This document shows, one piece after another, positions 2,436-15,812 of a stretch of 24,887 nt of DNA. A model generated the notes under the pieces. The model had not been told where the DNA came from. It saw nothing but the letters and a program-made list of their open reading frames with translations, and ran no database searches. Numbering within the stretch: the stretch's first letter is position 1; every line of letters starts with the position of its first letter. The stretch comes from a virus. The translations under genes and the position numbers were made by a program. The stretch is taken from the IMG/VR virus record IMGVR_UViG_3300009127_000031, positions 1 to 24,887 of that record. One strand, 5' to 3'.

Positions 2436-4361
2436 TTATACCGTAATCCCAAATTCGGCCAACTTACGCATGGCCGGAATAATTTCATCCTCGGTCATAT
2501 CTTCCCAGTTGATTTCATCCAAAGGCTCGGCCGTCTGAATAATAATATCACCGAAATACACATTACCGCCGCCGGAGGCCAAAAACTCGGTCAAGTCGCG
2601 GTTCTGTACCGGCGATAGCACCCGTTCGCCCCTATCCAACAAATAAGTCGCTTCTTTGGGCACGTAGTCGAGTCCGCCGTGGGGCGCTCCGGCGATCCCC
2701 AAGGCCTCCACGACCCCCAAACGGGCGCCACCGTAAAGCATCACCGCCGCCGCTGCGGCCGCGCCCAGGGCCGGGCCGATAATCGGTATTCCGGCCATTG
2801 CCTCATAGGCCTTGATGGCGCCGGTATGAGTCGAGCGCATGATTTCCGGTATCGCCGCCGCCTTAGATAGGTCAAACCCTTTAAACGCGCCGGTTTTTTG
2901 AATGCCGTAGATAGTCTGCTGCTTCCAATCCTCGCTGGAGGCCTGCTCTTTATCGGATTTTTTCTTTATAGCGGCTTTTTTCTTTTCATAGATGGCCTGC
3001 AACTTGGCCAGGGCTTCCTGGTTGGCCTTATATTTATTTTGCTCCTCGGCATACCAGTTGTCCAGACGCTCGGCCTCGCTCAAGAAGTGCTCGTCATACA
3101 TCTCCTGGAGGCGCTCCATGTTGGCCTGGGTGACTTCCATGTTGGCGCTGGAAAAGGGACTGATGCCCTGGGGTCCCTCCTCGCCGTCTCCGATCGGCGC
3201 GGTCCCGGCCGCACGGATCTCGGCCAAAGCGGTCTTGATCTTTTCGGTATATTCATCTACTTTTTCCGTGGCCAGGCCTTCGGCGGCCAGGTCGTTCAAC
3301 TGGGCCTGAGACTCAACGGCCAGCGCCTGCATTTCGGCGATGGCCTCGGTGTTGATCTGTTTGTAGTTTTGGACGCCGGCAATAGCATCGTCGAAAACGC
3401 CGCCGACATTGACGGCCTCCATAAAGGCCAGCAATTTCTCAGTCAGAAAATCGATTCCGGTCCACAGAGCCTCGGAAAAGCCCGCAAAACCGATCTGGAG
3501 CACTTCCCAGGTCATTTGCAAACCGCGCCAGGAATCCACCAGTACCGCCGCGGCATAGGCCCCCTTTTCAGCCACACCGCCCATTGCGAACAAAAAATTT
3601 TCGGCAAATTGAACGATCCCCTCGCGGTTTTCGGCGATGAATTCGGCGAAGCGATTTCCCAAACCGGTCAGCGTCGGCATAACCTCTTCAGCGATGCCGT
3701 ACTTGACGCCTTTGAGCGATCCCCACACCCGGGTGAGCATATCGTTGAACTCGGCCGCGTTAGCGCCGGCCTTGGCCGATATTACCAGGCCGAAACGCTC
3801 GGCCTCATCGGTCATGGCTTCCAGGCCCGCCTGGCCATCTTTGAACATCTGGAGCATGGAAATGCCGCGCTGGCCGAAAATTTTGCTGGCATATTCGGCC
3901 CGCATGGTGGCATCTTCGACATTGTGCAAGGCCTCAGCCAATTCCGGCATGATAGTCTCGGCGGTTTTTAATTTGCCGCTGGCATCAGCCACAGAAACGC
4001 CCAGGGCGTCGAAAACCTCCTTGCCCTGGCCTAACCCCCGGTTGGCCTCGCCGATGCGAACCTGGAGCATTTGGATTGATTTGTTAAAGGTTTCCTGCTT
4101 AATGCCGGAAAACTCAGCCGCCATACCATGTCTGGACAAAAACTCGGTGGAAACGCCCAACTGGTCGGAAAACTTCTGCACGCTGTCATAGGCCGTTGCC
4201 GTGCTTTTAACCACCGCCAGCACGGACCCGCCCAGGGCAGCCACCCCTCCCGCGGCCCCGATGGCCAGCGTTTTAAGTGAGGGCAATGCGCTCCGGAGCT
4301 TGCCAAACACCCCGGAAAACTTGTCCTGCGCTCCGATAATTATTTCCAGCTTCTCAGCCAT
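2436..4361 (-). CDS. Tape measure protein
   Basis: This is the longest gene of the tail module, 641 residues. It begins MAEKLEIIIGAQDKFSGVFG, a typical tape-measure opening, and has a hydrophobic Gly/Ala segment at about residues 29-51 and another at about 523-548 (GIPIIGPALGAAAAAAVMLY). Between them is a long helical, Ala/Glu/Gln-rich region with coiled-coil character (about 345-480). The C-terminal motif around GGLDYVPKEATYLLDRGERV is common in tape measures. The ATG directly follows the stop of the G-T chaperone frame. This order (tube, G, G-T, tape measure) is the classical one. At about 1.5 angstrom per helical residue, 641 residues would suggest a tail near 95 nm, which is an inference. 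The short length fits a D3112/B3-type siphophage. Confidence 0.93.
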   Translation of the reverse strand: MAEKLEIIIGAQDKFSGVFGKLRSALPSLKTLAIGAAGGVAALGGSVLAVVKSTATAYDSVQKFSDQLGVSTEFLSRHGMAAEFSGIKQETFNKSIQMLQVRIGEANRGLGQGKEVFDALGVSVADASGKLKTAETIMPELAEALHNVEDATMRAEYASKIFGQRGISMLQMFKDGQAGLEAMTDEAERFGLVISAKAGANAAEFNDMLTRVWGSLKGVKYGIAEEVMPTLTGLGNRFAEFIAENREGIVQFAENFLFAMGGVAEKGAYAAAVLVDSWRGLQMTWEVLQIGFAGFSEALWTGIDFLTEKLLAFMEAVNVGGVFDDAIAGVQNYKQINTEAIAEMQALAVESQAQLNDLAAEGLATEKVDEYTEKIKTALAEIRAAGTAPIGDGEEGPQGISPFSSANMEVTQANMERLQEMYDEHFLSEAERLDNWYAEEQNKYKANQEALAKLQAIYEKKKAAIKKKSDKEQASSEDWKQQTIYGIQKTGAFKGFDLSKAAAIPEIMRSTHTGAIKAYEAMAGIPIIGPALGAAAAAAVMLYGGARLGVVEALGIAGAPHGGLDYVPKEATYLLDRGERVLSPVQNRDLTEFLASGGGNVYFGDIIIQTAEPLDEINWEDMTEDEIIPAMRKLAEFGITV

Positions 4362-4637
4362 CTAAAAACCTGCCTGCATGCGATTTTCTTCGTCCTTGAT
4401 CGTAGTGAATATATCCACCACGATTTGGTATTGATCCATGACCCCGCCCGGGTCCGGCCACTCCAGGCGCGAATAATACCCGGTTTTGGCAAACTTACCC
4501 GCCTTTAACATGCGGCCGCCGTCCCAGCGCCACTCGTGGCAAGTGCGAAACAAACTAATCCATCTCCAGGCCGGCTGGCCGGCAACCGGTGTGCTTACGC
4601 GCCGTCCTGTTTCGTAGAATCGGACGGCGCTTTTGAG
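4362..4637 (-). CDS. Tail assembly chaperone T part, read by -1 frameshift
   Basis: This is the -1 frame extension of the tail chaperone G. After slippage at the heptamer 4637-4643, reading resumes at 4637 and stays open for 91 codons to the TAG at 4362-4364, just before the tape measure ATG. The G-T fusion would be 135 residues of G followed by 91 of T, 226 in total. A TTG-initiated stand-alone frame exists from 4553, but it has no good ribosome binding site, and the -1 frame is open upstream of it as far as the slip site, which favours frameshift expression. In siphophages such as lambda, G and G-T chaperone the tape measure during tail tube assembly, with T recruiting tube subunits. Confidence 0.85.
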   Translation of the reverse strand, partial: LKSAVRFYETGRRVSTPVAGQPAWRWISLFRTCHEWRWDGGRMLKAGKFAKTGYYSRLEWPDPGGVMDQYQIVVDIFTTIKDEENRMQAGF

Positions 4638-5041
4638 TTTTTTGCCGACATTTCGTCCAGGCTGGAAATGGCCGCCAGTTGCCCGCTGATCTCAACGGCC
4701 AGGGTCATGAAAATGGTTTCTTCGGCCAGGTGCTCCCAGGTCACAGGCTCTTTATTGACGGTGATCCCCTGGATGTTTTGCACGTGCTCCGGAAAAATGT
4801 CTTTGGCCAGCCCCTGGATCTTGCGGCTGCTCTTCGACAGTTTCTCTTTCTGTTCCGGCGTCAGGCGCTTAACAAAATCCTTTACGCTTTCATCGGGCTT
4901 GCGCCGCTCGCCTTCCAGGTACGGCGCCAGGGCAAACATGGCCCAGCTTTTCAGCGGCCGCAGTTCCATCGTCACTTTGTGGCCGTGAAATACGGTTTCA
5001 TACGGCTGCCAGCCGATCACGATATCCAATGGCATAGACAC
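4595..5041 (-). CDS. Tail assembly chaperone G
   Basis: A 148-residue protein lying between the tail tube and the tape measure, the canonical position of the G chaperone. It is soluble and mostly helical, with a charged middle (about 45-75, many Lys/Glu) and a polar C-terminus (MSAKNSKAPSDSTKQDGA). The slippery heptamer falls at codons 134-135. A GGGGGG tract sits just before the first ATG at 5041; a second in-frame ATG at 5035 is an alternative start. Ordinary termination at the TAA gives G, and -1 slippage gives the G-T fusion. In known systems a fixed G to G-T ratio controls tail assembly. Identity rests on context plus the frameshift signal, not on recognisable residues. Confidence 0.85.
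   Translation of the reverse strand: MSMPLDIVIGWQPYETVFHGHKVTMELRPLKSWAMFALAPYLEGERRKPDESVKDFVKRLTPEQKEKLSKSSRKIQGLAKDIFPEHVQNIQGITVNKEPVTWEHLAEETIFMTLAVEISGQLAAISSLDEMSAKNSKAPSDSTKQDGA
4599..4643 (-). promoter_or_regulatory. Programmed -1 ribosomal frameshift signal
   Basis: Read on the minus strand, the G frame contains A AAA AAC (4643-4637), with AAA and AAC as zero-frame codons. This is a canonical -1 slippery heptamer. Six bases later (TCAAAA) begins a perfect 9-bp stem: GCGCCGTCC at 4630-4622 pairs with GGACGGCGC at 4607-4599 across a 14-base loop. The -1 frame is open for 92 codons from the slip point. Slippery site, spacer and stem all have the expected geometry. Confidence 0.92.
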
Positions 5042-5047
5042 CCCCCT

Positions 5048-6016
5048 TTAATAAGCGCTCAATGTGTTGACCAGCGTAAATTCGATCATAGTGCCCGAAT
5101 CGGCGTGATAATCAGCTTCGCCCACAAAACCGGCTTCAACCATGCCGGGCCCGCCGATGTTTACCGGAAAGCTGTTATAGCGCATTCGCGGTATATCGAC
5201 CTCGAATTTGGCCGGATATCCTGAGCCGACGTCCTGGCCGGTCACCGTTACCACCACGCGCTGAGCCGCTTGGTTGCGGTAGTGATCGAACTCGTCGTCA
5301 TTGATAAACAGCATAGTCCCGGCCAGCTCGATTGCCCTGAACTCTTTGCGCTTGATGCGATTGGGCAGCTTGGTGCCGTCCAGGGTGCCCTTGGCTTCCA
5401 GGTTGTTTTTCATGGTCAGCGTCATTTGCGAAAGATCGTCGATGGCGCCGTCGGCCGATCCCTGAAAGCTGGCGCTGGCCTGGTCCCAGGTGTACTCGGA
5501 CCCGCCCAGATACGACGGTATGGTTTTGGCCACCTTGCCGAAATTGGCTCCGATCACCGTCATGGTGGCCTTGACGATCTGCCCGTAGGCGATCTCGATG
5601 GCCAGCATGTCGCACAAACAGTCATAATACTGGTGGGCGCTGCCGGCATCGCGGTACACTTCGATGGTCATGGGCGGCACCGCCGCCTTCTCATCGAAAT
5701 CGTCCGTGCACGGCTGAAATTCATGCGTATAGCATGAGTCGTTCAGGGTGCCGCTGCTCTGGCCGCACCAGGCCTTGAGCACCTTGCCGAGCAAAATCGG
5801 GTGCGCCGGAAACACCACGTCGCCGCCGATTTCATGGGCCCCTTCGTAGACATCGCCCTTTTCATAGCGGCCGCGCATGCCCTCAGACGGCAGCGCCGGA
5901 ATGTTTTCGGAAAGCGACTCGCTGATGATCGGAAAATAATGAAAACTGTTTACGTTGGCCGTGCCAAAGCTGTCCTGAAACGCTATGGCTACATGGCTTC
6001 TCATTCCGTATGGCAT
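5048..6016 (-). CDS. Phage tail tube protein
   Basis: A 322-residue protein with beta-rich character, starting MPYGMRSHVAIAFQDSFGTA, which resembles the opening of many siphophage tail tube proteins. It has repeated strand/turn patterns (ATMTVIGANFGK near the middle; ELAGTMLFINDDEFDHYRNQ in the C-terminal half) and no membrane segment. It lies directly before the chaperone pair G/G-T, exactly where the major tail subunit is expected, and there is no sheath gene upstream. The start overlaps the preceding stop (TAATG) and has an extended GGAGGTGATGA ribosome binding site 9 bases upstream, fitting an abundant virion protein. Confidence in a major tail subunit is high; the exact family name is less certain. 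Confidence 0.85.
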   Translation of the reverse strand: MPYGMRSHVAIAFQDSFGTANVNSFHYFPIISESLSENIPALPSEGMRGRYEKGDVYEGAHEIGGDVVFPAHPILLGKVLKAWCGQSSGTLNDSCYTHEFQPCTDDFDEKAAVPPMTIEVYRDAGSAHQYYDCLCDMLAIEIAYGQIVKATMTVIGANFGKVAKTIPSYLGGSEYTWDQASASFQGSADGAIDDLSQMTLTMKNNLEAKGTLDGTKLPNRIKRKEFRAIELAGTMLFINDDEFDHYRNQAAQRVVVTVTGQDVGSGYPAKFEVDIPRMRYNSFPVNIGGPGMVEAGFVGEADYHADSGTMIEFTLVNTLSAY

Positions 6017-7547: not shown

Positions 7548-10448
7548 CTAAAAGTATTTTTCGCCGTAATGCCGGGTCTGCTCGGCGATCAGTTTATTCA
7601 TAAAATCTTCAATGTCCTGTCTGCCGGCAAACTTGCCGAAGATCGGGGTTTCCGGCAGGTGCACGTCCGCTCCGTTGGCGGACGCCGCCAGGTTGACAAC
7701 AAATTCGATGCCGCCGCCCAATAGGTTGACGGCCTCGCTGTAATATGGCAATCCTTCTACTACCATGCGCATTTCATCCATTTCCAGTAGCCCGCGCCAC
7801 AGCTCGACGATGGTCTCGGCCTGGGCACCGATCTCCGGTGTCAGTCGGCGGCCGTTGGCCTCAAAGGTGTAGCGGATATTATGGGCCAGGTCGCGCAGAT
7901 ACAAAAACTTGCCCAATTTGCGGTCCGGGTAGGCCTCGCGATCGCGCTTAATCAACGGGAAATTGCGGTCGAACCGTTTGCGGCGAATGGCCTCGGTGGC
8001 ATAGCCGGTATGCATGACTGCCACGTCCGGCAAAAGCATGACCTTGCCCACGCCCTCATTGGGCCCTTCGGGCCGGCTGGGATGCTCGTGGACCAGGCCG
8101 AAAAAGCAGATGCCTCTGTGATTGCGAAAACAGCGCACTGGAAAATCGGTCTTGATCAAGTCGGCCGGCTCAGCCGCAAAGTGGAGCTGGCTGACGCCGT
8201 AGCCGGTGAAGCAATTAGGCCGCAGATATTTTTTAAGGTTTTGGGCGTTCTCCAGGGTCTCGTCGGCGTCAACCCACAAAATCCAGTCCATTGTTGCCTG
8301 CTCGATGGACAGGTTGCGCGCGGCGTCAAACCCGATCTCCAGCGGCGACGGGATCTCGATACAGCGGGCCCCGAAACTTTCGGCAATCTCCCGGGTGTTG
8401 TCCGTGGTCGTTTGATCGATCGCCACAATGATCTCATCGGCGATATCCTTGACCTTGCGCAGCGTGCGGCCGATACTGTCGGCTTCGTCTTTGGCAATCA
8501 TGCACACGCTTAAAGTTTCCCGGGGGGCCTGTTGATTGAGCTTGCGCTGATAATCGATGCGCCCGATCGGCTCTCCGGACGGATTAAACGTCAGCACAAA
8601 ATGCCCCAGTTCGCCGCGGTGCGGCAGGGCCAGCAAATTGTAGTTTTCCTGGGTGCCGAATATCTCGTACAGGTCACGGCGCTCGAAATGGTGGATGTGG
8701 GCGCGCCAGCCCGGATGATCCGCGTACCCGATGGCCTCCCAGGGGCCGTAGGGCGTTGAAATCAGCATGGTGCCGTCCGGGTTAAGGTGTTTCATCAGGC
8801 TTTCGACCATCTCTACCGGATCAGGCACGTGCTCGAGGATCTCGGCCGCGATGATCATGTCGAATTTGTACTCATCCGGTATGCCCTTATGGGTGCCAAC
8901 GTGAAACTCGGGCCTAAACCGATGCTGTTTTTCTTCTTTTTCGGCCCATTTAATTGCGGCTAAGATGTTTGATTCATTGATGTCGAAACCAACAAACTCT
9001 ATGTCCGGAAACCGTTTCAAGAGGTTCATCACATAATGACCGTGGGCGCAGCCGTAATCGAGCACGGTCTTGGGCGCGGCCTTTTTGACCATCTCGGATA
9101 TGCACTCAAAGCGGTTGTTGTCGGTCAGATCCTCGGGGCCGTATTCGACACCCCGGTCCTTTTCATATTGATAGTAGCGATCGTAGTGGCGCTCGAAATC
9201 CATGTCCAGATAGAAATAATAATTGCGCGAAAAGTCGGGCAAGATGTCATTTATGGCGTCAAAGGGATAACCGCGCTCCTCTGCTTGGGCAATCGGATAT
9301 TCATGCTGGAGAATCGCCTTGATATCGCTTAAGCGCTCCAGATGTTTGTACAGCCGCACTTTGTTCGAGGATCGTTTCTTCAGCAGATCGGCAAAAAGTA
9401 CTTCCCATTGTGCGGCAGCCTGGGTCCAGGACTGGCGCTTCTGTTTGGCCTTTGAATGCAGTTTTTCCCACTGGCCGGGAACGTTCAGGATTTTACGCAC
9501 GGTCTTGACGAATGCTTTTTGGTCGACCTCGCCGTCCTTAAACGGCAAAAGCATTGCGCCATCCCGGCCGATGGTTTCGGGCAGGGCCGCATTTTTAAAT
9601 CCGACAAACGGCGTGCCGGCGGCATTGGACTCGATGGATACGATGTTTGAAGTGTCTTCGAACGTGGTCGGGTAGACGTACAGCATCGATTTTGCCATCA
9701 GTTCATAAAGTTGGCGCTTGCCCAGAAAGCCCACGTTGGTCACGTTGGGCAGCTCCTCGCAGCGGCGCCACAAATATTCGTAAAACCCGCGCATCTGATC
9801 GGGCACGTTCTTGTAGCTGCACACGTACAAATGGCAGTCGCTAAGCTGCTCCATAATGCCGCCTGCTTCCACCAAATTTTCCAGGCCGCGCTCCGGGCGC
9901 GAGGCAAACACCAAAGAGCGCGGCTCGCGCTCGAAGTGTTCCAGGTTCTTGAAGGTATCGTAATCCACGCCGTTGATGGTGGCCGTGACAAATTCCTTAT
10001 CGATGCCGTATATTTCACTGACCTGGCTGCGGTGAAACTCCGAAACCGTCAAAACCCGATCGATATTGACCAGGTGCTGCTGCACTATGCCGGCGCTGCG
10101 GTATAGCGCCAGATCATGCAACCACCAGATGTTGAGCTTGCTGTTGTACTGCGAGGCAAACGCTAAAGGATGGCGCTGGGCGATCACCACGTCATTGGGC
10201 GCCTGCATGGCAAAATGAAAATGATAGCCCATCGGAAACTGCTCGCTGATCTGGCCCAGCCATTCGTAGCGCACGCCGTCCCAGCTCCCGGTCTTTTGGG
10301 AGTTGGTAAACAAAATCACCGTGTGCCCCAGTTTGGCCAGCTCCAGAGCCATGTAATAAGCCGCCGATTCGGACCCGCCCAGACTTTCGCCTTTGGGGAT
10401 GGTTTCGCCGTTAAACGGCATGCCCCCGCAGTGGATGGCAATATGCAT
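7548..10448 (-). CDS. Three-domain glycosyltransferase-methyltransferase-glycosyltransferase
   Basis: A 966-residue fusion. Residues about 1-360 form a GT4-type (GT-B) glycosyltransferase: GGSESAAYYMALELAKLGHT at 24-43, and the acceptor/donor segment FEDTSNIVSIESNAAGTPFV at 263-282. Residues about 400-620 form a class I SAM methyltransferase: motif I VLDYGCAHG (462-470), acidic D489 in FVGFDI, and IIAAEILEHVPDP (532-544). Residues about 645-900 form a GT2 (GT-A) glycosyltransferase: SVCMIAKDEADSIGRTL (647-663) and a D-x-D in WVDADE (D727, D729). There is no signal peptide or membrane anchor, so it should be cytoplasmic. AAAGGAG lies 5 bases before the ATG, 13 bases after the gp35-like stop, without its own terminator. 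Inside the late structural operon it most plausibly modifies a virion protein with a methylated glycan; changing host surface glycans is the alternative. Domain calls are secure, the substrate is unknown. Confidence 0.93.
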   Translation of the reverse strand: MHIAIHCGGMPFNGETIPKGESLGGSESAAYYMALELAKLGHTVILFTNSQKTGSWDGVRYEWLGQISEQFPMGYHFHFAMQAPNDVVIAQRHPLAFASQYNSKLNIWWLHDLALYRSAGIVQQHLVNIDRVLTVSEFHRSQVSEIYGIDKEFVTATINGVDYDTFKNLEHFEREPRSLVFASRPERGLENLVEAGGIMEQLSDCHLYVCSYKNVPDQMRGFYEYLWRRCEELPNVTNVGFLGKRQLYELMAKSMLYVYPTTFEDTSNIVSIESNAAGTPFVGFKNAALPETIGRDGAMLLPFKDGEVDQKAFVKTVRKILNVPGQWEKLHSKAKQKRQSWTQAAAQWEVLFADLLKKRSSNKVRLYKHLERLSDIKAILQHEYPIAQAEERGYPFDAINDILPDFSRNYYFYLDMDFERHYDRYYQYEKDRGVEYGPEDLTDNNRFECISEMVKKAAPKTVLDYGCAHGHYVMNLLKRFPDIEFVGFDINESNILAAIKWAEKEEKQHRFRPEFHVGTHKGIPDEYKFDMIIAAEILEHVPDPVEMVESLMKHLNPDGTMLISTPYGPWEAIGYADHPGWRAHIHHFERRDLYEIFGTQENYNLLALPHRGELGHFVLTFNPSGEPIGRIDYQRKLNQQAPRETLSVCMIAKDEADSIGRTLRKVKDIADEIIVAIDQTTTDNTREIAESFGARCIEIPSPLEIGFDAARNLSIEQATMDWILWVDADETLENAQNLKKYLRPNCFTGYGVSQLHFAAEPADLIKTDFPVRCFRNHRGICFFGLVHEHPSRPEGPNEGVGKVMLLPDVAVMHTGYATEAIRRKRFDRNFPLIKRDREAYPDRKLGKFLYLRDLAHNIRYTFEANGRRLTPEIGAQAETIVELWRGLLEMDEMRMVVEGLPYYSEAVNLLGGGIEFVVNLAASANGADVHLPETPIFGKFAGRQDIEDFMNKLIAEQTRHYGEKYF

Positions 10449-11898: not shown

Positions 11899-12285
11899 TT
11901 ACCAGGCAAATGAGCTTGAAAATGCGTATACAGGTGCCGTAAAATTGAACAGCCCTGTGCCGATAGAACCGGAAGTTACAGCGGCTGCCTTGTTGCGACC
12001 CACGATATAATCACCGCTCCCCGCTTCTGTAAGCCAGCCGGAGGTCGTAACGGTCAATGGTTTCGAGGCCGCAACAGCCCCGCCGGCCGCATACTTCAGT
12101 TCACCCTGGTACCCCAAGGTGCCGCCGTCGCCGCTTTTGGGCTTGGACAGCAGAATGCCGGAGGCCTCCTCGCCGCTGTTTGCCAGCTTACCGTCGTCCA
12201 GGGCAATGGCATGGTAGATGCACCCGCTGTTCAGGTCTTCGCCGGCTTCAAACGTGGTTTCAAGTCGTCTTCCTTCGGTTGCCAT
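11899..12285 (-). CDS. Head decoration-like protein
   Basis: A 128-residue Gly/Ala/Ser-rich protein starting MATEGRRLETTFEAGEDLNS. Its short strands and turns resemble small capsid decoration proteins (DUF2190-like or lambda gpD-like beta-tulip folds), in particular the N-terminal beta-arm followed by GEEASGILLSKPKSGDGGTL. It sits between the scaffold and the major capsid, where decoration proteins are common. The ATG overlaps the upstream stop (TGATG) and is served by GGAGGTGAT (GGAGG at 12299-12295, 9-base spacer) embedded in the end of the scaffold gene. The strong site suggests high expression. Confidence 0.72.
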   Translation of the reverse strand: MATEGRRLETTFEAGEDLNSGCIYHAIALDDGKLANSGEEASGILLSKPKSGDGGTLGYQGELKYAAGGAVAASKPLTVTTSGWLTEAGSGDYIVGRNKAAAVTSGSIGTGLFNFTAPVYAFSSSFAW

Positions 12286-12821
12286 CAGTCATCACCTCCT
12301 TCGTCGGCCTTGGGCGATTCGGCCAGATAGCGCTTGGCCAAATCTTCGTCGTCAGCCAGAATGGCCTCGACGGCTATACCGTAATCGACCTTATGCTCGG
12401 TCGAGTATTTCTTGGCCTTGGCATCCAGTTCTGCACCGGCGCCGGCATAGGTTTTGGTGTCTTTGTCCTTGTCATTTTCATCAGTAGCCACTTCGCCCGT
12501 AGGCAGTACTTTGCCGTGGGTTTCGGCGTACTTTTTGAACGTCTCGAACGAAATGGTCCAGCCGGCGACTTCGGAATAAACGTGCAATCCGCTGTCCAGG
12601 CCGCTTGTAATTACGTCCCGGCCTGCAGGCGTCATTTTGCCGTCGGCGACCATCTGCTCGCAGAACGTCTTGATCTCGTCAGCATCGGCCTTTTTCGCTT
12701 TTTCAGCGTTCTTTTTGCGCTCGGCTTCAAGATCATCGGCGTATTTTTTGGCATCAGCCTCAGCCTTTTCACGCGCTTTGCGTTCGGCCTCGAGCTTAGC
12801 CTCCAACTCTTTGTTGGGCAT
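12285..12821 (-). CDS. Scaffold protein from internal start (Mu Z-like)
   Basis: This frame starts at an internal ATG (12821) within the protease gene and shares its last 178 residues. GGAGGTGATGAT (GGAGG at 12833-12829, 7 bases before the ATG) is an excellent ribosome binding site inside coding sequence. The product starts MPNKELEAKLEAERKAREKA and continues with a highly charged coiled coil to about residue 50, then an acidic C-terminal region. This matches a head scaffolding protein. In Mu, scaffold Z is made from an in-frame start inside protease gene I; the same arrangement is inferred here. The protein would guide capsid assembly and be removed by the protease. Confidence 0.8.
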   Translation of the reverse strand: MPNKELEAKLEAERKAREKAEADAKKYADDLEAERKKNAEKAKKADADEIKTFCEQMVADGKMTPAGRDVITSGLDSGLHVYSEVAGWTISFETFKKYAETHGKVLPTGEVATDENDKDKDTKTYAGAGAELDAKAKKYSTEHKVDYGIAVEAILADDEDLAKRYLAESPKADEGGDD

Positions 12822-13550
12822 ATCATCACCTCCATTGTCTGCAGTGATTGATCCATCCTCTCCATAGGCGAATTCACAAACCTTCAGTGCGTCAAACGAG
12901 CCCGATTCGTCATCGGTGGATTGACTCATAAAAGCCTGGAGATCCGCTAAGTCCTTTACTATCGGAACGTCCTGTCCCAGCAAAGACACCGCGTATAGGA
13001 CGCGCCGGTAGGTTTTTCCCTCGTGTTTGAAATTCCATAAAATCTCGGCGCTGGCACGCCGGTACAATTTGCGTTTGATGGCTCGGTACACAATGTCCGG
13101 AACATCTGAAAACTTGGCGATCAGCTTTTGGCCGACTCTTCGCAGCTTGGTGGTCCAGCCGGCCGCAGGTTTGCCGTCCACTATATGCATTTTGCTGCGG
13201 TGACCGAACTTGACCGGCGGCTTGATCACGTCTTTGAGGGCCGCAAAGTTGCTGACCATATCGTCCAGATCATCTTCGGTATAAGGGTCGCCCCCGTGCA
13301 CGCCGGTGCTAAATACTTCCAGCTCAAATTCGTGGGTCTCGGCATGGTCTTTTTTGACCCATTTATCGTTTTCGCCCTTTTCAAAACCTGCATTTTTAAC
13401 CGCGCCCCAGGCAGCCTGCCGGGCTGCGTCCTCATCGTCGGGCTTTTTCTCGATGGTGGCATTAAATACTTCTCGCCATATGTTTTGGGCCTCGGCCGGC
13501 AGTGCGTTTCTCACTCCCTCCGGCAAATCGTCATTGCTTTTGTACGGCAT
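12285..13550 (-). CDS. ChaB-fused prohead protease/scaffold polyprotein (Mu I-like)
   Basis: A 421-residue polyprotein. Residues 1 to about 66 form a ChaB domain (MPYKSNDDLPEGVRNALPAE and WGAVKNAGFEKGENDKWVKK). Residues about 70-210 form the phage Mu I-type prohead protease: EVFSTGVHGGDPYTEDDLDD, PPVKFGHRSK and RRASAEILWNFKHEGKTYRR are typical. Residues 244-421 are the scaffold, also made separately from the internal start at 12821. GGAGG lies 6 bases before the ATG, and the portal gene ends 18 bases upstream. The protease matures the capsid by cutting scaffold and itself. The ChaB domain at the N-terminus of a head protease is a variation on Mu, where it is absent. I cannot place catalytic residues with certainty. 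Confidence 0.87.
   Translation of the reverse strand: MPYKSNDDLPEGVRNALPAEAQNIWREVFNATIEKKPDDEDAARQAAWGAVKNAGFEKGENDKWVKKDHAETHEFELEVFSTGVHGGDPYTEDDLDDMVSNFAALKDVIKPPVKFGHRSKMHIVDGKPAAGWTTKLRRVGQKLIAKFSDVPDIVYRAIKRKLYRRASAEILWNFKHEGKTYRRVLYAVSLLGQDVPIVKDLADLQAFMSQSTDDESGSFDALKVCEFAYGEDGSITADNGGDDMPNKELEAKLEAERKAREKAEADAKKYADDLEAERKKNAEKAKKADADEIKTFCEQMVADGKMTPAGRDVITSGLDSGLHVYSEVAGWTISFETFKKYAETHGKVLPTGEVATDENDKDKDTKTYAGAGAELDAKAKKYSTEHKVDYGIAVEAILADDEDLAKRYLAESPKADEGGDD
12822..12833 (-). promoter_or_regulatory. Internal ribosome binding site for the scaffold
   Basis: GGAGG at 12833-12829 with a 7-base spacer TGATGAT before the in-frame ATG at 12821, inside the protease/scaffold gene. It decides the start of the nested scaffold protein. 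Confidence 0.82.
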
Positions 13551-13568: not shown

Positions 13569-15812
13569 TCACGCGAATCCTTTCTGCGGCTGCAGCCTTG
13601 GTTTGGGCGACTCCTTACCGTCCCAGTCGTCCATGATGGTTACCGGCACCAGCAGGGCGCGGCACATATGATGATTGGGCGGCGTATAGACGCCGAAATC
13701 CTTCAATATTTTGCCGTGCAAATGCTCGCAGATCTCCGAGATGCGATTGTCCAGCACGGCCGAGTATTCACTCGCCAGGACAAACCCTTTCAATTCGGGC
13801 TCGCCGAACAAGGCTGTGCGCGCCGTGTTGAGGGCGTCCGACGTATTGGTGCGCGCGATATTTTCAATCCGCGCCGGCTTATTGATCGGCCGGCCGGCTG
13901 CATCGGTTTCCGGCAGCAGCTTTAAAAGATCGGTGTCATCGCTAATGGCGTCGATGGTCTGCTTGAGCGTCTTGTCATATCTGATGCCGTTTTCCAGTAC
14001 GCGCGACACCCCTTTGAGCACGTCCTGTTCGATCACCCCGGCGATCTTCATGGCCTTGCGCGACAGGAATTTTTCAGCCTGGGTTTTGTCCATGCCCGGC
14101 CGGATGGCGGCGTGCTGTTTTTTAGGCAGTTCCTTGCGCGCCATTTCATAACCGTCCTTTAGAATCGTTTGCAGATTGTCCCGGATGGTTTTGCGCAGAC
14201 CCGACACCAAATTGACCGGTATTTTAACGGCCTCGATCTCCTGGGGTTTGACATTTCCAAGGGAGCGCTGACCCACGATCTTGATGATCTGGCTCTCGAC
14301 GGAGGTGCGCACCCGGGCCATGATATTCAGCATTTCCGCCATAAAGCGGTCATCCTGGGTGTTCAGGGTCTCCTCGATGCGGGCAAAATTGACCCGGCGC
14401 ATCCAGGGTTTTTCGGCCATTTCCTTACGGACCGCCTCGGGATCTTCCTGATCCTCGATCCACTGCTCGTTTTCCGGCACATCCATTGGCGCCGTCTCAT
14501 CGTCATCACCGGGCTTATCCGGCGTAGCCTCCGGCTCTTCGGGCTCGGCTTTTTCCGGCGCGCCGATCAACTGCCGTATCCAGGCCTCGTCGCTGTCGGA
14601 TTTGGTTACCGCGTTGCCGGCTACCAGCTCTTTCCAGGTTTTGGCCAGCTCGATCTTCTGGGCCTCGGAGATTGGCTCAAAGCAAAACGGCGGATAATCA
14701 TCGGTCCCGAAATTCCACAATGCCAGTTGTTTGAACATCTGTTCGTTCAGCGTTTCGGCCAGGTCGTTGGCGATGGAATCCAGTATCCAGCAGAACACGT
14801 CAAACTGGGTTTGAGACTGGCTGTACGACCCGGTTTCGCCCTGCTCGGACAAACCCAAAAGATTCGGGACCAGCAGGCTTTTGGCAATGGCCTTGTCATG
14901 CTGGGCCATTGCGCGGTCGTAGGCGTCGGTCCGCAGCGGGTTAAACTGATTCAGCGTTACCGTATCCGGCAAGTGCGCGCCCATGCGGGCCGATACGTTT
15001 TTGAGCAGATTCTCCAGATCGGTCTTCTGGCCGCCGGTCAACCGCCCTTTGACCTGGGCCCAGATAAACCCTCCGGCATGCCGCTCCAGGTGAATATTCT
15101 GGAATTTGATGGTGATGTCCTTGGACCACCAGGAACGATAGGCTGCCCGCAGATCTGACTCGCCGTAATGCTCGTCAATATCTGGCTGGTGCACGAAATG
15201 GATCACTTTTGACAGCGGAATTTTCCGGGCATTGCCGACCTGGAGCTGTCTGAGCCGCAGAATGTTGCCGTGCGGATCGCACTCGAATCCACCGTCAAAA
15301 CTGTCAAATGGCCGCAGCTTCAAAGACTGAATGCCCCACATGATTTTGTCTCGCCATTTGATCGGCGTAAATACTTTCTCGGTAATGGAAAACCCGTTTT
15401 GCAATGCCGAGAGAATATTGGTCATGTTTTTGGTGAACGTGCCCTTGATTTTTTTAACGGCGCTTTTGAAGAACTCGGCCATATCTTCATGATCGCCGCG
15501 TTTCTCGCCGGCATCGTCGGTGCCGACATCAAAATACCAGTCGCGGCTGACCACGGCCACACGCTTGAACCCCAGTACGGCCTTGACCTGGTCGTCCAGC
15601 ATCATTTTGCGGTAGATATCCTTACCCTTACGCTGCAGCAGAAGATCTGGATTGTATTTGGGGAAATCCTTGGCCGTGTATAAAACACTGTCGGCATAGC
15701 CGATCTCGCCCGCTTCCCCGGGCCCCGGCCCGGACGGCGTCGTCGGCGCTTCCGGTTTTTCTCTCGCAAACAATCTCACTATCGGCCAGTTTCTAATCCT
15801 GTCGACAATCAT
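13569..15812 (-). CDS. Portal-MuF fusion (DUF935 portal plus Mu F head morphogenesis domain)
   Basis: A 747-residue fusion. Residues about 40-415 are a Mu gp29/DUF935 portal protein: DQVKAVLGFKRVAVVSRDWY (74-93), IHFVHQPDIDEHYGESDLRA (204-223), VPNLLGLSEQGETGSYSQS (315-333) and KLELA-like helices. An acidic Pro-rich linker follows at about 420-460. The C-terminal domain carries Mu F/SPP1 gp7 hallmarks: RTNTSDALNTAR, then LDNRISEICEHLHGKI and PPNHHMCRALLVPV near residues 700-725. In Mu these are two genes, gp29 and F. The ATG overlaps the terminase stop (ATGA). The portal anchors packaging and MuF domains aid capsid assembly or are ejected with DNA. No internal ribosome binding site for a separate MuF was noticed. 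Confidence 0.92.
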   Translation of the reverse strand: MIVDRIRNWPIVRLFAREKPEAPTTPSGPGPGEAGEIGYADSVLYTAKDFPKYNPDLLLQRKGKDIYRKMMLDDQVKAVLGFKRVAVVSRDWYFDVGTDDAGEKRGDHEDMAEFFKSAVKKIKGTFTKNMTNILSALQNGFSITEKVFTPIKWRDKIMWGIQSLKLRPFDSFDGGFECDPHGNILRLRQLQVGNARKIPLSKVIHFVHQPDIDEHYGESDLRAAYRSWWSKDITIKFQNIHLERHAGGFIWAQVKGRLTGGQKTDLENLLKNVSARMGAHLPDTVTLNQFNPLRTDAYDRAMAQHDKAIAKSLLVPNLLGLSEQGETGSYSQSQTQFDVFCWILDSIANDLAETLNEQMFKQLALWNFGTDDYPPFCFEPISEAQKIELAKTWKELVAGNAVTKSDSDEAWIRQLIGAPEKAEPEEPEATPDKPGDDDETAPMDVPENEQWIEDQEDPEAVRKEMAEKPWMRRVNFARIEETLNTQDDRFMAEMLNIMARVRTSVESQIIKIVGQRSLGNVKPQEIEAVKIPVNLVSGLRKTIRDNLQTILKDGYEMARKELPKKQHAAIRPGMDKTQAEKFLSRKAMKIAGVIEQDVLKGVSRVLENGIRYDKTLKQTIDAISDDTDLLKLLPETDAAGRPINKPARIENIARTNTSDALNTARTALFGEPELKGFVLASEYSAVLDNRISEICEHLHGKILKDFGVYTPPNHHMCRALLVPVTIMDDWDGKESPKPRLQPQKGFA

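Follow-up and report, generated by a model that had tools for sequence, protein, structure and literature searches.

A probable -1 frameshift of the lambda G/G-T type between the tail tube and tape measure genes of a viral sequence and nine related loci

Introduction

Frameshifting in tail chaperone genes is well known, with wide conservation among long-tailed phages. The slippery heptamer of phage lambda is G_GGA_AAG. In lambda, the tape measure protein is bound by G as well as by G-T, and the tail shaft subunit by T (PMC5009743). HK97 likewise uses a chaperone frameshift (PMC5313236), and the tail chaperone of Mu uses a -2 shift (PMC5009743, PMC2628397). The heptamer A_AAA_AAC has been predicted at the tail chaperone gene of the Acinetobacter phages Loki and IME_AB3 (PMC5313236) and of the haloarchaeal HCTV-2 (PMC5009743), and possibly also, again as a prediction, in the Paenibacillus phage Dragolir (PMC6003738). 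In E. coli, A_AAA_AAC is a weaker -1 site than A_AAA_AAG (PMC5009743); one study measured frameshifting of 6-7% at tail chaperone sites cloned from phages (PMC3711429).

Here, we analysed a virus record of 24,887 nucleotides (IMG/VR IMGVR_UViG_3300009127_000031, called the window for simplicity), in which two overlapping reading frames, G and T, lie in the gene order tail tube - G - T - tape measure, and we very probably see in them a programmed -1 ribosomal frameshift of the lambda G/G-T type that would make a G-T fusion. As in lambda, the locus is flanked by the tail tube and tape measure genes, the shift site falls close to the 3' end of G, the direction is -1 and T adjoins the tape measure gene; unlike lambda, the window has A_AAA_AAC, a strong 3' hairpin and a G and T outside the recognised sequence families. 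With Mu it shares a Mu-like transposase, portal and gp36, whereas its shift is -1 and its tail genes look siphovirus-like (Phage_tube_2 tube). Loki, IME_AB3, Dragolir and HCTV-2 have the same heptamer in the same gene, and no sequence link between them and the window was found.

Results and discussion

Locus and slippery site

The structural genes of the window are encoded on the minus strand, and the features relevant here are:

5048..6016, minus strand: tail tube protein, upstream of G (Pfam Phage_tube_2, 1.3e-23)
4595..5035, minus strand: gene G, putative tail assembly chaperone, 146 aa, ATG at 5035, stop TAA at 4597-4595
4643-4637, minus strand: slippery heptamer A_AAA_AAC, 0-frame codons GCA AAA AAC in G
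4631..4636, minus strand: 6-nt spacer TCAAAA (4-7 nt in relatives)
4599..4630, minus strand: putative stimulatory hairpin, 9-bp stem with a 14-nt loop (4621-4608)
4362..4643, minus strand: T extension in the -1 frame, AAA AAA CTC ... TTT TAG
2436..4361, minus strand: tape measure protein (PHROG tape measure, 1.5e-51)

The Pfam model PhageMin_Tail also matched the tape measure protein (3e-7), narrowly below the family cut-off. The ORF finder prolongs G to a GTG at 5041; alignment with relatives indicates that the ATG at 5035 is probably the true start.

The heptamer lies near the 3' end of G and in the G (0) frame. Past it the -1 frame is open for 91 sense codons (LKSAVRF...) and closes with the TAG at 4364-4362, which directly abuts the tape measure ATG at 4361; the extension carries a conserved CHEWRWDG...GYYSRLEWP motif. 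The initial annotation had placed the whole signal at 4599-4643, and these coordinates and their geometry, i.e. an in-frame A_AAA_AAC, a six-base gap and a perfect 9-bp stem, were borne out. Its statement that the -1 frame stays open up to the tape measure gene was also correct, its 92 codons being a count that includes the stop.

By itself, AAAAAAC carries little weight as evidence, since the window contains 15 copies against 5.7 expected. The combination with a stem is more selective: among the 300 X_XXY_YYZ strings on both strands of the window, only two are followed by a stem this strong at a spacer of 4-9 nt, namely the G site and a plus-strand site at 9874, which is tied for the strongest stem but is antisense to the gene there.

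Hairpin in the window

The stem is formed by GCGCCGTCC (4630-4622), which pairs perfectly with GGACGGCGC (4607-4599). The 59-nt stretch starting at the heptamer folds at -19.9 kcal/mol into exactly this 9-bp stem, compared with a mean of -10.8 kcal/mol for dinucleotide shuffles (z -3.5), none of 200 being as stable. An Rfam search gave no match, and a Shine-Dalgarno-like stimulator upstream of the heptamer is absent in the window and also in L003, one of the relatives described below.

Relatives of the locus

Nine further distinct homologous loci from IMG/VR (L002, L003, L004, L008, L010, L013, L014, L018 and L019) were reached via the tape measure protein and then by alignments of G and T, and counts of ten loci given below refer to the window plus these nine. 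Their identity to the window is 37-50% in G and 29-62% in T. Other routes returned nothing: G as a single query retrieved nothing related from viral contigs or annotated phages, a search with T gave no phage match, the tail-tube protein retrieved no relatives from viral contigs, and a scan of genome contigs with the T alignment found no match and hence no host. Vibrio K303, Marinitoga virus 1 and L005-L007, which are more distantly related through the tape measure or the tube, were excluded from the counts; the small ORFs that precede the tape measure gene in them are not recognisably related to G or T. One alignment containing an artificial linker was left out of every count.

Heptamer, frame and entry into T

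A 0-frame X_XXY_YYZ heptamer near the 3' end of G was found in ten out of ten loci, and so was a homologous T domain in the -1 frame. Loss of the heptamer or of the open -1 frame in relatives had been named by the initial annotation as an outcome that would speak against the signal; both are kept in all nine. The heptamer of the relatives is A_AAA_AAC in eight cases and A_AAT_TTA in L003, so that the slippery pattern, and not merely an A run, is conserved. In no locus does T lie in the frame that a -2 (or +1) shift would give, and the +1 frame holds only short, non-conserved open stretches.

The A-rich heptamer raises the question of whether the frame is changed during transcription, with RNA polymerase slipping on the A run to give mixed mRNAs and the hairpin being either incidental or an enhancer of slippage. 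A runs can cause such slippage, and the heptamer holds six A residues in the window and A7 stretches occur in six relatives. Polymerase slippage, however, usually needs runs longer than 6-7, against which the run in the window is short, and the L003 heptamer (AAATTTA) contains no A run at all. These two points render transcriptional slippage unlikely, and a 3' stem 4-7 nt past the heptamer in all loci fits ribosome pausing instead; we consider this explanation very improbable.

Another possibility is that T is a separate protein, translated after the G stop by reinitiation or from its own ribosome binding site. G and T overlap, G ends right at the heptamer in L004 and L019, and GTG or TTG codons in the T frame precede the T core in L004, L003 and L013. 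In the window, though, the T frame has no ATG, GTG or TTG before codon 30, which is a TTG inside the conserved core, and the first start codon comes no earlier than codon 33 in L010 and L014, codon 44 in L008 and codon 69 in L002 and L018. KKLRRAV, the T-frame stretch directly past the heptamer, is nevertheless conserved, and over the 7 codons past the heptamer identity is 59% in the T reading versus 41% in the G reading. On the other side of the heptamer, an upstream stop closes the -1 frame 0-1 codons before it in seven of the nine relatives and three codons before it in L004. Because of these upstream stops and because a T start before the conserved core is mostly lacking, entry into T must take place at the heptamer, and independent translation of T appears extremely improbable.

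Some relatives show further sequence elements around the site. A second in-frame heptamer is present within the G/T overlap of L010 (A_AAA_AAG, 2806-2812) and of L018 (G_GGA_AAA, 3333-3339, overlapping the main site). Purine-rich, Shine-Dalgarno-like sequences (AAGG or GGAG) ending 6-8 nt before the heptamer in L013, L014, L018, L019 and L004 resemble the dnaX stimulator; they are suggestive of a third element in some relatives, and we do not claim them as a component of the signal.

Covariation of the stem and position of its 3' arm

The helix begins 4-7 nt past the heptamer in all ten loci, and in each of them the downstream stem is better than that of dinucleotide shuffles (shuffle fractions 0 to 0.03). 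Conservation of heptamer and stem, which the initial annotation had proposed to examine in related prophages, thus holds for the slippery site and for the presence of a downstream stem (nine out of nine relatives) and not for the stem sequence itself, which differs. The paired sequences vary among the loci, with loops of 14-50 nt, and 86 of 90 cells in the aligned stem arms pair. Two-sided changes were seen at position 2 (G-C to C-G), position 4 (C-G to G-C) and position 5 (C-G to T-A). A permutation test of the stem (0/20,000) is biased, the arms having been chosen as best-pairing, and the shuffle test is the fairer one; we rely on it and on the common position of the 3' arm in six relatives.

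In L004, L008, L010, L013, L014 and L019 the 3' arm is located at T-frame G-x-P codons (loops of 31-44 nt). The window and its closest relative L002 use a nearer 3' arm (14-nt loop), and the distal site no longer matches. The 3' arm thus looks as if it had been relocated in these two, as judged from ten sequences compared without a tree. It is possible, and we put this forward tentatively, that the loci represent an unannotated chaperone family, carried by Mu-like phages whose tails are siphovirus-like. In this family, selection would keep the stem while its 3' arm moves, and in several relatives an upstream Shine-Dalgarno-like element may be an addition. If this were true, the hairpin would be rebuilt without loss of its pausing function.

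Protein identity of G and T

G and T of the window have no Pfam or PHROG match, and scans of all ten family members against both collections yielded only sub-threshold, chance-level matches. The AlphaFold model of G (mean pLDDT 83) consists of an N-terminal beta hairpin and helices. Its top PDB fold match is 3fgx, an uncharacterised protein from Bacillus stearothermophilus (Z 5.3), followed by 2ob9, the HK97 tail assembly chaperone (Z 4.3, rmsd 5.5, 87 residues aligned), whose fold is similar to that predicted for G in a weak match with 12% identity over the aligned part. Both score above the other PDB entries for G, with modest values, and Foldseek of the G model against the PDB gave no significant match. 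For the T model (mean pLDDT 80, pTM 0.56), the fold search returned no meaningful match and none that was viral.

With neither protein matching a sequence family and the T fold having no viral match, G and T might be some other frameshifted structural or regulatory pair. The locus, however, sits between tail tube and tape measure, the HK97 chaperone ranks second among the PDB fold matches of G, and several weak BFVD matches of G carry the name "tail assembly chaperone"; a pair of a different kind is accordingly improbable. The tail-chaperone identity given in the initial annotation therefore stands as a reading suggested by the position of the locus, the architecture of the frameshift and a weak similarity of fold, and not by a sequence match to known chaperone families. 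As judged from these sequences, G and T would form a new, uncharacterised family of lambda-type frameshift chaperones.

Proposed mechanism

A lambda G/G-T type frameshift is favoured because a 0-frame heptamer, a conserved T in the -1 frame, a stem, its covariation and the position between tube and tape measure genes come together at one site. Most ribosomes would reach the G stop and produce the 146-aa G. A minority, paused at the hairpin, would slip back one base on A_AAA_AAC, with tRNA-Lys and tRNA-Asn slipping in tandem from AAA AAC to AAA AAA. Translation in the -1 frame would then give a G-T protein of ~224 aa, composed of 133 G residues ending in Asn and the 91 residues that start with LKSAVRF. 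On the model of lambda, the tape measure protein would be coated with many copies of G, few copies of G-T would recruit tail tube subunits through T, and the G to G-T ratio set by the signal would control tail assembly. Slippage at the heptamer, its efficiency and the chaperone role are what we infer. The sequence supports the -1 frameshift signal of the initial annotation, whose textbook geometry does not imply high efficiency, A_AAA_AAC being weaker than A_AAA_AAG.

The understanding of the frameshift mechanism is unchanged by this finding; what is new is small, namely the covarying stem and, in the window and L002, the apparently relocated 3' arm. A single gene with two products can be annotated in place of an otherwise unmatched ORF pair, in a phage family that lacks Pfam or PHROG models for G and T. 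The ten loci, with one slippery site and diverse covarying stems, also provide a clean comparative set for the evolution of frameshift stimulators.

Other genes in the window

Three further minus-strand ORFs have unusual domain arrangements. A 966-aa protein (7548-10448), which sits in the structural block between the capsid and gp36-like genes, combines GT4-like glycosyltransferase, methyltransferase and GT2 glycosyltransferase domains and possibly modifies virion or host-surface glycans. A single 747-aa ORF (13569-15812) encodes a fusion of Mu-type portal and Mu F-like domains, and the ORF in the protease/scaffold position (12285-13550) starts with a ChaB domain (PF06150, 5.6e-16).
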